Shown here in pieces: positions 16 to 3,332 of a DNA stretch of 46,404 bases. Source of the DNA: an uncultured SAR86 cluster bacterium (lineage in GTDB: Bacteria > Pseudomonadota > Gammaproteobacteria > Magnimaribacterales > AG-339-G14); contig CACESE010000009.1 of the NCBI GenBank assembly GCA_902562135.1, positions 1 to 46,404 on the forward strand, given 5' to 3'. The translations under genes were made by a program, and so were the position numbers. A model generated the notes under the pieces. The model worked only from the letters and a program-made list of their open reading frames with translations. It was not told the origin of the DNA and made no database searches. Each line of letters opens with the position of its first letter. Within the stretch, counting starts at the first letter, position 1.

Positions 16-518
16 CTGAATTTCTAGATCAAAAAAGAAAGACTCTTCCAATTTATTTTACTATCGGCATTTCAATATTAATTTTTTCAGTTTTTGAAAT
101 AATTTTAAGAAATTCAATTCCGCTATTTCTTAATATTCCTTTAACTTTGATGTGTCTTATTTACTGGAATATGGCATTACCAAAAAGCGTTGGTTTATTT
201 TGGGCTATATTAGCTGGCTTTATTTTAGATGTATCTCAAGACATTATTTTAGGGTCGAACGTGTTAATTTTTTTGATTAGTTCATACTTAATTCAAAGGT
301 ATTTTCATAGGTTAAGAGCTTTGTTTAGAATTCAACAATCTTTAATTGTTGCAGCGATGGTGTTTATTTATCAAATAATTTTTATTTTTTTTCTCTTAAA
401 CTTTTCATTCGAAGTCGTTAAAGAAGTAATATTTTTAACATTTATTGCTTTAATAACTTGGCCAATTGTTTATGGAATATTAAGGTTTATCAGAATTAGA
501 TTTACGTATGTAAATTAA
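12..518 (+). CDS. mreD: rod shape-determining protein MreD
   Basis: This 168-residue protein is almost entirely hydrophobic, with about five predicted membrane helices, and matches MreD in length (about 160-170 residues). The middle stretch around residues 65-105 (Gly-Phe-Ile-Leu-Asp-Val followed by a Leu-Gly helix and a Tyr-X-His-Arg-Leu-Arg loop) is the recognisable family core. MreD is an inner-membrane part of the MreBCD elongasome that guides lateral wall synthesis. The ATG start overlaps a TGA that is probably the end of mreC. The gene converges with mgtE: both stop codons are read from one palindromic TTAA at 515-518, leaving no room for a terminator. Confidence 0.9.
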   Translation: MTEFLDQKRKTLPIYFTIGISILIFSVFEIILRNSIPLFLNIPLTLMCLIYWNMALPKSVGLFWAILAGFILDVSQDIILGSNVLIFLISSYLIQRYFHRLRALFRIQQSLIVAAMVFIYQIIFIFFLLNFSFEVVKEVIFLTFIALITWPIVYGILRFIRIRFTYVN

Positions 519-1849
519 CCATAAAATAGAGTTGCTAACCCTAAAAAAGACATAAATCCAACAACGTCTGTGATAGTGGTGACTATAACGCTTCCTGCTA
601 TTGCAGGATCTAGTTTAAAGAATTTTAGTAATATTGGAATACCCATCCCGCTAATCACCGCCATAAATAAATTAATCACCATAGATAATAAAATTATTAA
701 GGTTATTGTTAATTCTCCAAACCAAAAATATGAAATCAATCCCAACACAAGAGCCCAAAAAAAACCATTTACAACTCCAACAGTAATTTCTCTTGACAGC
801 AAATATAAATAGTTTGTTGACATGATTTGACCTAATGCCAATCCTCTTACTGTTATGGTTAAAGTTTGAGTTGCCGCCACACCTCCCATACTCGCAATTA
901 TCGGCATTAATACAGCCAAAAAAATTACTTCTTCTATTGTTTCTTTAAAAAGATTAATAACAGAAGAGGCTATGATCGCAGTTAATAAATTAATGCCGAG
1001 CCAAATTCCTCTAGTTTTTATTGCAACTGAGGTTTTTTCGAAAGTGTCGCCACTCAATCCAGAGAATTGCTTTAATGAGACATCGGCATCTGATTTTATT
1101 TTATCTATGACATCATCAAAAGTGATCCTTCCAATTAAATTATTTTTTTCATCTATAACAGGAGCTGATATCAAATCATCTCTTTCAAATATTTTGATTA
1201 CTTCATCAGACTTAATTTCAGCGTTTAAAGCACTTTTTTCAACCATAATATTTTTTATGTTTTCAGTTGGAGCGCTAGTAATTAAATTTGAAATTGGCAA
1301 TACGCCTCTAAATTTATTATTTCTGCTTACAACAAATAAATTGTCTGTAGATAGAGGTATAGAGTTCTTTATTCTTAGATATCTAAGCACCAATTCTACA
1401 GAGTGATAAGGCCTTACCACTATGAAATCAGTATTCATCAAACCACCTGCCGAATCTTCTGGATACTTCAATACTCTTTCTAAAATATCCTTATTTTGAT
1501 AAGACATTTTTTCGATAACTTCTTTCATGATCTGTTCAGGAAGATCTTGCAAAATGTCAGCGATCTCATCAGGCTCTAGATCTTTTGTAACAATTGCTAC
1601 TTCTTCAGGATCCATGTATGTAAGTACAGTTTCTCTAACATCGTTTGATAAATTCTTTAAAATTTCTCCTTCTTTACTTTCTTCTATCAATTGCCAAATC
1701 AGAGCTCTTTTTTTTGGTGGACTTGATTCGATAATAAGTGCCGTTTCATAGGCGGGAAGAGAATTAAGGACATCTTTAGATTCTGCATATTTTTCAGAAC
1801 TAAGAAATGCAATTAAATTTTTACTATCTGATTTGATATCTTCATTCAT
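515..1849 (-). CDS. mgtE: magnesium transporter MgtE
   Basis: The 444 residues show the full MgtE layout: an N-terminal superhelical domain of repeated acidic Asp-Pro-Asp-Glu-Ile segments (about 20-125), two CBS domains (about 130-255) and a C-terminal block of five membrane helices (about 280-444) containing the Pro-Ile-Ile-Ala-Ser-Met-Gly-Gly stretch of the ion pore. MgtE forms a homodimeric Mg2+ channel gated by Mg2+ bound to the cytoplasmic domains. Its ATG overlaps the stop of the upstream RpoN-box ORF (ATGA at 1849-1846), so it is probably translated with the lptB transcript. mgtE is not a usual partner of the lpt genes, so this join is specific to this lineage. Confidence 0.93.
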   Translation of the reverse strand: MNEDIKSDSKNLIAFLSSEKYAESKDVLNSLPAYETALIIESSPPKKRALIWQLIEESKEGEILKNLSNDVRETVLTYMDPEEVAIVTKDLEPDEIADILQDLPEQIMKEVIEKMSYQNKDILERVLKYPEDSAGGLMNTDFIVVRPYHSVELVLRYLRIKNSIPLSTDNLFVVSRNNKFRGVLPISNLITSAPTENIKNIMVEKSALNAEIKSDEVIKIFERDDLISAPVIDEKNNLIGRITFDDVIDKIKSDADVSLKQFSGLSGDTFEKTSVAIKTRGIWLGINLLTAIIASSVINLFKETIEEVIFLAVLMPIIASMGGVAATQTLTITVRGLALGQIMSTNYLYLLSREITVGVVNGFFWALVLGLISYFWFGELTITLIILLSMVINLFMAVISGMGIPILLKFFKLDPAIAGSVIVTTITDVVGFMSFLGLATLFYG

Positions 1850-2076
1850 GATCTTAATTTTCGATCATGCGAAGAAGATATCTTTAGCTTTGTTCTATAT
1901 TTTGAAATAGTCTTTCTTGAAACTAAAACATTATGTTTTTTTTCAAAAAGATCTTTTAATTTTTCATCTGTAAGAGGATCATTTTTATTTTCTTCTAAAA
2001 TTATTTTTTGTAAAAACTCTAAAAGGAGAGTTTTTTTAGTTTTTTTTAACGTTAATTCAACTTTTTTAATTTTCAA
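1846..2076 (-). CDS. free-standing sigma-54 (RpoN) C-terminal DNA-binding domain
   Basis: The ORF codes for only about 76-80 residues. All recognisable sequence matches the last 60 or so residues of RpoN: a Leu-rich helix, Pro-Leu-Thr-Asp-Glu-Lys-Leu, then Val-Ser-Arg-Lys-Thr-Ile-Ser-Lys-Tyr-Arg. That last stretch corresponds to the RpoN box (ARRTVAKYRE) that reads the -24 promoter element. The core-binding and activator-interaction regions are absent. It sits directly after lptB, where full-length rpoN normally lies. I chose TTG at 2076 because GGAG lies six bases upstream; the frame is also open to a TTG at 2088. It overlaps lptB by a few bases and mgtE by ATGA, which argues for a translated gene rather than decaying debris. 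Function is unknown. Confidence 0.75.
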   Translation of the reverse strand: MKIKKVELTLKKTKKTLLLEFLQKIILEENKNDPLTDEKLKDLFEKKHNVLVSRKTISKYRTKLKISSSHDRKLRS

Positions 2077-2782
2077 ATGAATCTCCAAGATAAACTTTTT
2101 TTACCATTTCATTATTTAAAATCTCTTCGGATGTTCCATGAGATATGATATTTCCAGAGCTAATTACAAATATTTTCTGACATATGTCTGTTGTAGCTTT
2201 TACGTTGTGATCGCTAATTAAAATTCCTAATCCTTTTTTCTTTAATTTCTGAATTAGCATTTTTAAATCGTCTATTGCCAAAGGATCTATTCCTGCAAAA
2301 GGCTCATCAAGCATTATAAATTTTGGATTTAAAGCGATAGAACGAGCAATTTCTACTCTTCTTCTTTGCCCTCCAGAAAGTTCTCTGCCTTTTTGTTTTG
2401 CTAAAGAAGAGATTTTGAATTCTTCCATAATTTCAATAATTCTAGAATTTAATTCTTTTTTTGATGAAGTTTTAGTTTCCAGAGATGATTTAATATTTTC
2501 TTCTACAGATAAATTTCTAAAAATCGAAGGTTCTTGAGGCAAATATACTAAACCTTCTTCTGCGCGAGAGCTAAGAGAAAGAGAATTAATTTTTCTATTA
2601 TTGAAAATTACCTTTCCACTATCTGGATTAGTCAATCCTGCAAGAATATAAAAAAGTGTGGTTTTGCCAGCCCCATTAGGGCCTAGCAAACCTGTAATTT
2701 CGTCAAGGTTTATCTGGATGGAAACTTTTTTAAGAATTTCTTTTTTTCCGTAAGATTTACTTATGTTTACAGCTTCAATCAT
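2066..2782 (-). CDS. lptB: lipopolysaccharide export ATPase LptB
   Basis: This 238-residue ABC ATPase carries a Walker A loop Gly-Pro-Asn-Gly-Ala-Gly-Lys-Thr at 34-41, Q-loop Leu-Pro-Gln-Glu-Pro at 81-85, signature Leu-Ser-Gly-Gly-Gln at 135-139, Walker B ending Leu-Asp-Glu at 158-160 and an H-loop in Ser-Asp-His-Asn. The Gln-Arg-Arg-Arg-Val-Glu run after the signature and the Gly-Ile-Asp-Pro after Walker B are typical of LptB. It powers extraction of lipopolysaccharide from the inner membrane together with LptF and LptG, which are not in the window. Its start overlaps the end of lptC, and a sigma-54 remnant follows it. Confidence 0.95.
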   Translation of the reverse strand: MIEAVNISKSYGKKEILKKVSIQINLDEITGLLGPNGAGKTTLFYILAGLTNPDSGKVIFNNRKINSLSLSSRAEEGLVYLPQEPSIFRNLSVEENIKSSLETKTSSKKELNSRIIEIMEEFKISSLAKQKGRELSGGQRRRVEIARSIALNPKFIMLDEPFAGIDPLAIDDLKMLIQKLKKKGLGILISDHNVKATTDICQKIFVISSGNIISHGTSEEILNNEMVKKVYLGDSFEN

Positions 2783-3332
2783 TGGAAGTTTTAAACCTCA
2801 CATTTACACTATTCAAAATCTTTTTTAAAGACAAATCAATTAGAATTGAGTCAGCTAAATAAATATTTCCTTCGTGATATAGTTCTAACCCTTTTGAGAT
2901 TTCAGCAGTATTTTTTTTAAGATTAATTGTTAAATTACCCAAACTGCCTGAAAATTCAGTATCATTAAAAATTCCGCTAAAATTTGTAGATTCTTTGAAT
3001 TCAATAATATTAGCTTTATAAAAAAAATCTGCATTCTGTGATTTTCCAAAAATGCTTAGATCTTTATTATTATCAAAATAAATCTCTGGACTGAATAATC
3101 TCATAAAATCAGAATCTGCTAAGCTATTTAACATTTCACTTTTTATAACAAAATCAATTTCAGTATCATCAAAAGAAATTCTCAAGCTAACCTCATCCGC
3201 TTGAAAAATGTTTTTTACAATAACCTCGTTAGGGTTTACTTTAGATGAGTCCAAAAAGTTTGATGTTAAAAAAAGAGATATTCCAATTAAGCAAACGAGC
3301 AGAATTGAATAAATAATAATACTTTTTCGCAT
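2775..3332 (-). CDS. lptC: lipopolysaccharide export protein LptC
   Basis: The 185-residue protein has one N-terminal membrane helix (about residues 5-24) without a clear cleavage site, followed by a beta-rich periplasmic region, and is close to the usual LptC length of about 190. The C-terminal pattern, two short strands leading to Val-Asn-Val-Arg-Phe-Lys-Thr, resembles LptC. In the family it takes lipopolysaccharide from LptB2FG and passes it to LptA. Position between kdsD and lptB fits lptC. The expected lptA and kdsC are absent here. Sequence conservation is weak, so the call leans on position, topology and length; an LptC that also covers the LptA role cannot be excluded. Start and upstream stop overlap as TAATG. 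Confidence 0.75.
   Translation of the reverse strand: MRKSIIIYSILLVCLIGISLFLTSNFLDSSKVNPNEVIVKNIFQADEVSLRISFDDTEIDFVIKSEMLNSLADSDFMRLFSPEIYFDNNKDLSIFGKSQNADFFYKANIIEFKESTNFSGIFNDTEFSGSLGNLTINLKKNTAEISKGLELYHEGNIYLADSILIDLSLKKILNSVNVRFKTSND

Follow-up and report, generated by a model that had tools for sequence, protein, structure and literature searches.

Genes at the lptB locus

The window, by which we mean the whole stretch of 46,404 nucleotides analysed here, belongs to the genome of an uncultured SAR86 cluster bacterium (0.99 Mb, 76% complete). Between lptB and an mgtE-type transporter gene it carries a short gene for a stand-alone RpoN domain, referred to below as the box gene (Table 1). 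The original prediction of a short RpoN-box reading frame after lptB, intact and overlapping both neighbours, agrees with what lies there: the frame is undisturbed and shares bases 2066-2076 with lptB and the usual ATGA, at 1846-1849, with mgtE. A length of 76 to 80 codons with a GGAG site before a TTG had also been claimed, and this holds for the 76-codon reading from the TTG at 2076, but not for the 80-codon reading from the TTG at 2088. As the GGAG is placed 6 bases ahead of TTG 2076, and as this start is common to all five genomes of genus g1, it is the better of the two; TTG 2088 is not common to those genomes, and the GGAG falls downstream of that start codon. The encoded protein has a mass of 9 kDa and a pI of about 10.

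Table 1. Features of the region between mgtE and lptB, in window coordinates.
Feature	Position	Strand	Remarks
mgtE-type divalent cation transporter, downstream neighbour	515..1849	minus	ATGA overlap with the box gene
Stand-alone RpoN-domain gene (box gene)	1846..2076	minus	76 codons, TTG start at 2076, TGA stop at 1846-1848
RpoN-box helix, Ser-Arg-Lys-Thr-Ile-Ser-Lys-Tyr-Arg	1894..1920	minus	8/9 positions invariant in 10 orthologues
Basic N-terminal arm, about 16 residues, net charge +6	2029..2076	minus	Low-confidence model, no structure there
lptB, ABC transporter ATPase, upstream neighbour	2066..2782	minus	11-base overlap with the box gene
GGAG ribosome-binding site within the end of lptB	2083..2086	minus	

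On the other side of lptB, a reading frame of 185 residues (2775-3332, minus strand) separates it from a kdsD-like gene and occupies the place of lptC/lptA; it gave no Pfam match at E 1.

Domain identity and fold

Residues 18-77 of the 80-residue reading match positions 101-159 of the 160 positions of the Pfam model Sigma54_DBD (PF04552), with an E-value of 8e-13 and 48.9 bits against a cut-off of 22.8, and this is the sole domain above cut-off in the protein. Chains of the PDB named sigma-54 also match by sequence (2mt3, E 3e-7). The structure model (pLDDT 76.7) displays three core-domain helices and a short C-terminal helix. Compared with the PDB by Foldseek, it matches sigma-54 RpoN domains best; one of these is 2o8k, a complex of the domain with the -24 element (TM 0.72 on the target, probability 1.00). 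The Foldseek E-values are weak (0.05-0.1), as expected at such short length, and the identity of the protein rests mainly on the sequence profile. By sequence and fold together, the box protein is a member of the RpoN-domain module.

Three defining parts of sigma-54 were looked for in the protein and not found. The Pfam search detected neither the activator-interacting domain (region I, PF00309) nor the core-RNA-polymerase-binding domain (PF04963), and the extra-long helix with the helix-turn-helix for the -12 element is absent, the match starting at position 101 of PF04552. The box protein is therefore not a sigma factor. Both the claim that only the C-terminal DNA-binding domain of sigma-54 is kept, free of its polymerase-binding parts, and the proposed comparison of a predicted structure with that domain were borne out by these results.

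Orthology and distribution in the SAR86 order

The order comprises four families, and the window's own family (f1) was sampled as 40 genomes, one of them a single contig that is 97% complete. Full-length rpoN, of about 425 residues, is found in families f2 and f3 with the exception of genus g11, and in most loci read there the gene order is lptB-rpoN-mgtE. This shared position makes the box gene the positional orthologue of rpoN, shortened at its N-terminus by about 350 residues. In family f1 it is confined to genera g1 and g4, with five genomes each; genera g2 and g3 lack it. Its lptB neighbour was recovered in 11 genomes of g1 and g4, 10 of which have the box gene, while the g4 genome G030 lacks it; in G001 and G009 the lptB locus is missing. 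A search of related genomes for the same short frame after lptB had been proposed, and intact copies are present in ten genomes and two genera. Relatives with named database records comprise SAR86 cluster genomes plus a single MAG that bears the label Gammaproteobacteria.

The surroundings of lptB differ among the genomes without a box gene. In g2 (L065-L068, L073) and in G030 (L064), mgtE has disappeared from the locus along with the box, and lptB faces mreD; in g3 (L069-L072), mgtE directly follows lptB with no box between them. Neither a detectable RpoN nor a high-scoring NtrC-type activator was observed in genus g11 of f3 and in family f4, so the whole sigma-54/NtrC system has been lost more than once in the SAR86 order.

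In the f3 genome G171 (C1:584114-584565), sigma-54 is divided over two open frames (positions 4-97 and 102-158). The break lies at the RpoN-domain border, where the f1 gene is truncated as well, and reflects either a frameshift or an error of sequencing. Among 370 sampled gammaproteobacterial genomes, two g1 SAR86 genomes aside, only G563 has its best Sigma54_DBD match at a similarly weak level (1.9e-8); this 99% complete genome from outside SAR86 may hold a second partial sigma-54. An origin from viruses or mobile elements was rejected: no box gene was found in viral contigs, and phage and plasmid hits cover the box only and are sigma-54 where annotated.

Selection and conservation

The reading frame is intact in all ten box orthologues of g1 and g4, and pairwise dN/dS among them ranges from 0.02 to 0.26, with synonymous differences of about 1 per site or above in most pairs, that is, near saturation. 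Most conserved is the RpoN-box helix (Ser-Arg-Lys-Thr-Ile-X-Lys-Tyr-Arg), where 8 of 9 positions are invariant against 13 of 67 elsewhere (p = 8e-5). Low dN/dS and survival across two genera indicate that the gene is under purifying selection and not a recent remnant. This disposes of one option left by the original prediction, which had named a near-neutral dN/dS or frequent frameshifts as the result that would speak against it; neither was seen.

One change is fixed relative to full-length SAR86 RpoN. Position 456 (E. coli numbering) is Arg in 34/34 full-length boxes read and Lys in 10/10 stand-alone boxes, all ten of which keep Arg455. In sigma-54, alanine at 455 or 456 abolishes binding to the -24 element (PMC7175178). 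Lys456 could still contact guanine, and the DNA specificity of the box protein may be kept or shifted.

Search for the remaining parts of sigma-54

A full-length rpoN elsewhere in the genome would have spoken against a stand-alone module; none was found in the window's assembly (76% complete) or in any of the 40 f1 genomes, the 97% complete single contig included. The core-binding domain PF04963 was found in 71 of the 151 genomes searched across the order and in none of f1, and the activator-interacting domain PF00309 gave sub-threshold noise only in the f1 genomes; both searches had built-in positive controls. A SAR86-specific RpoN profile with the box removed, a search run with no such control, returned nothing at E 10 in f1. 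A full-length or split sigma-54 elsewhere in f1 was accordingly rejected, PF04552, PF04963, PF00309 and the SAR86 RpoN profile all being negative except for the box gene itself. The box of the window genome scores 46.1 bits, as high as the box fragment of the G171 sigma-54 with 44.0, and a co-evolving N-terminal piece should therefore be visible. Judged by these profiles, a hidden split sigma-54 is unlikely.

NtrC and its GAFTGA loop

An NtrC encoded in a glnA-ntrB-ntrC operon is present in g1, g4 and g2 (loci L054-L057, L063, L074-L097) and was not found in g3. Its GAFTGA loop is the part that contacts region I of sigma-54 (PMC7057263). The loop is intact in 12/12 NtrC sequences of g1 and the main g4 group, and the lost or broken GAFTGA of a sigma-70-type NtrC was thus not seen in the box-bearing genomes. 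In g2 it reads GAFKGA in 15/15 sequences (T to K), and in the g4 pair G030/G027 it reads GAFAGA (T to A). The absence of the box was read at the locus for G030 and derives from a search only for G027, the lptB locus of which was not recovered. The NtrC tree places G030/G027 within the g1 and g4 side, as sister to the other g4 sequences, which means that NtrC-bearing genomes became box-less on at least two occasions. In f1 NtrC, the threonine that contacts sigma-54 has been lost repeatedly.

There are 172 columns that are invariant in the NtrC sequences of box-bearing and full-rpoN genomes; eight of them are changed in g2 and one in G030/G027, and the GAFTGA threonine is the sole column changed in both box-less lineages. 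For random change among the 172 columns, the probability of a joint hit on the threonine is roughly 8/172 x 1/172 (3 in 10,000), and for a site evolving at the mean NtrC rate, change on both stems has a chance of about 1%, figures that refer to a correlation of two independent events only. Genera g3 and g11 and family f4 lack NtrC as well as RpoN in any form. Retention of the box therefore seems to be tied to the sigma-54-contact threonine of NtrC, a tie which the original prediction had missed.

Promoters and candidate target sites

Relatives that have sigma-54 carry -24/-12 motifs upstream of glnA (in G092, TGGCATAGGAATTGC) and of glnK (in G043, TGGCATTTGGATTGC). Upstream of glnA in f1 (loci L054-L057, L063, L162-L178; the coordinates tried did not yield this promoter for G030/G027), a pair of conserved NtrC-like sites (TAGTGCA ... 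TGCACTA) precedes an extended -10 element (TTTGnTAnnAT) at a fixed distance, a layout that is the same in box-bearing g1 and g4 and in box-less g2. With NtrC-like sites and an extended -10 in place of a -24/-12 motif, f1 glnA has the appearance of a sigma-70 promoter that NtrC controls. There has apparently been a switch of glnA from sigma-54 to sigma-70 control in f1.

It had been suggested that the box protein acts at former -24 sites, and this found no confirmation. At glnA there is neither a -24/-12 motif nor a GG element specific to box genomes as opposed to box-less ones, and g1 glnK has no -24/-12 motif; action at glnA or glnK was rejected on these grounds. Counted genome-wide as the exact motif TGGCAYN5TTGCW, a strict form to which sites consisting of the GG element only are invisible, -24/-12 sites number 2-6 per genome in box genomes, 2-8 in the box-less genera of f1 and 5-18 in the sigma-54-bearing families, and 20/20 sites examined in g1 and g4 fall inside open frames. 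Surviving -24/-12 promoters were likewise rejected, the counts being at background in all f1 genera and the examined g1 and g4 sites intragenic.

Comparison with known systems

In sequence, fold, box helix and locus (lptB-rpoN-mgtE), the box protein resembles the RpoN domain of sigma-54 (PF04552, about positions 100-160; 2o8k, 2mt3). It differs from sigma-54 by lacking the activator-interacting, core-binding and extra-long-helix/helix-turn-helix parts, by Lys in place of Arg456, and by being encoded separately, from a start of its own, and carrying a basic arm. RpoN* is an engineered, isolated RpoN domain of about 60 residues from Aquifex that alters transcription even in cells that lack native RpoN (PMC5626770). 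Like the RpoN* roadblock, the box protein is an RpoN domain alone with no other domain; RpoN*, however, is man-made and used in cells with sigma-54 promoters, whereas the box protein is natural, selected and found in genomes with no detectable sigma-54.

A natural truncation of rpoN has been described in Neisseria, where the gene lacks its DNA-binding end and is described as inactive (PMC2784325, citing Laskos 1998). The SAR86 box is the opposite case, with only the DNA-binding end kept and under selection. Within the searched literature, that of Neisseria was the sole natural truncated rpoN met, and the search returned no paper with rpoN or sigma-54 in SAR86 as its subject. Sigma-70-dependent NtrC is known from Rhodobacter capsulatus and Caulobacter (PMC10274813). 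The f1 NtrC resembles these in apparently controlling a glnA promoter that is not of the sigma-54 type and, in g2 and G030/G027, in its broken GAFTGA; unlike them, box-bearing SAR86 keep GAFTGA intact, although the searches revealed no region I as its contact partner.

Interpretation

The reading we prefer, the chances for and against which seem to us evenly balanced, is that the box gene encodes a selected stand-alone DNA-binding regulator tied to NtrC and resembling the RpoN* roadblock. It builds on the observed domain, its truncation, the selection acting on it, the lack of a detectable sigma-54 and the co-retention with the NtrC threonine. An ancestral sigma-54 has lost about 350 N-terminal residues with the activator-interacting, core-binding and -12-binding parts, leaving a helix-turn-helix protein with a basic arm that would work outside RNA polymerase. 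Such a protein may bind a GG-containing, -24-like site, possibly with altered specificity due to the change of Arg456 to Lys, and in the cell it may block or mark that site, with repression or co-activation as the outcome. It would belong to the NtrC pathway, where as a small regulator it most likely blocks a site, and NtrC may relieve or use this effect through its L1 loop. Against this reading stand the searches of promoters, which found no -24/-12 motif or GG element particular to box genomes at glnA and no -24/-12 motif at g1 glnK, and the basis of the NtrC link in two independent events. GAFTGA is moreover known to touch region I, which the box protein lacks, and box and mgtE vanish together from the locus in g2 and G030. 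It is possible, if doubtful, that NtrC with its intact loop acts directly on the box protein, or on a sigma-70 polymerase complex that this protein marks, in a pathway without sigma-54; NtrC could then grip the flexible basic arm and thereby evict or reposition the box protein on the DNA.

The evidence on domain, fold and selection also fits an independent small repressor or roadblock that represses sigma-70 promoters at sites of its own, the correlation with NtrC being coincidence, and the identical glnA promoter layout with and without the box agrees with it; we consider it unlikely, as the two box-less lineages share a change in just one conserved NtrC column, that of the threonine, and as g3, g11 and f4 lack NtrC along with every form of RpoN. 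Repurposing away from promoters, as a nucleoid-associated or RNA-binding basic protein or in a role in the lipopolysaccharide/magnesium operon, would suit the pI of about 10, the basic arm and the joint loss of box and mgtE in g2 and G030. What is invariant, however, is a set of specific RpoN-box residues and not a general basic character, and g3 has mgtE adjoining lptB without a box, which makes such a role decidedly improbable. That NtrC keeps GAFTGA would be directly explained if diverged activator-interacting and core-binding parts were encoded elsewhere and the box protein were the DNA-binding subunit of a split sigma-54, yet the negative searches with PF04963, PF00309 and the SAR86 RpoN profile in 40 genomes, the 97% complete contig among them, the box score on a par with the f3 fragment and -24/-12 promoters at background render this very improbable. 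Least credible of all is a decaying, functionless remnant of rpoN; detectable RpoN is indeed gone from g2, g3, G030 and other SAR86 groups, but the low dN/dS at nearly saturated synonymous sites, ten intact frames over two genera, a start signal conserved in g1 and the invariant box residues all speak against decay.

Implications

Sigma-54 is commonly regarded as forming one unit with its AAA+ activators. Here, small-genome ocean bacteria have apparently been caught between keeping and losing sigma-54 while two genera diverged: the DNA-reading end of sigma-54 survives by itself under selection, and the activator retains a loop known to touch a sigma-54 part that has vanished. It may be asked, then, whether region I is the only route by which the GAFTGA threonine acts. 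The box protein would be a natural counterpart of the engineered RpoN* and may offer a direct test case of a sigma factor turning into an ordinary transcription factor, in a lineage in which a known regulatory system seems to persist without its core component.
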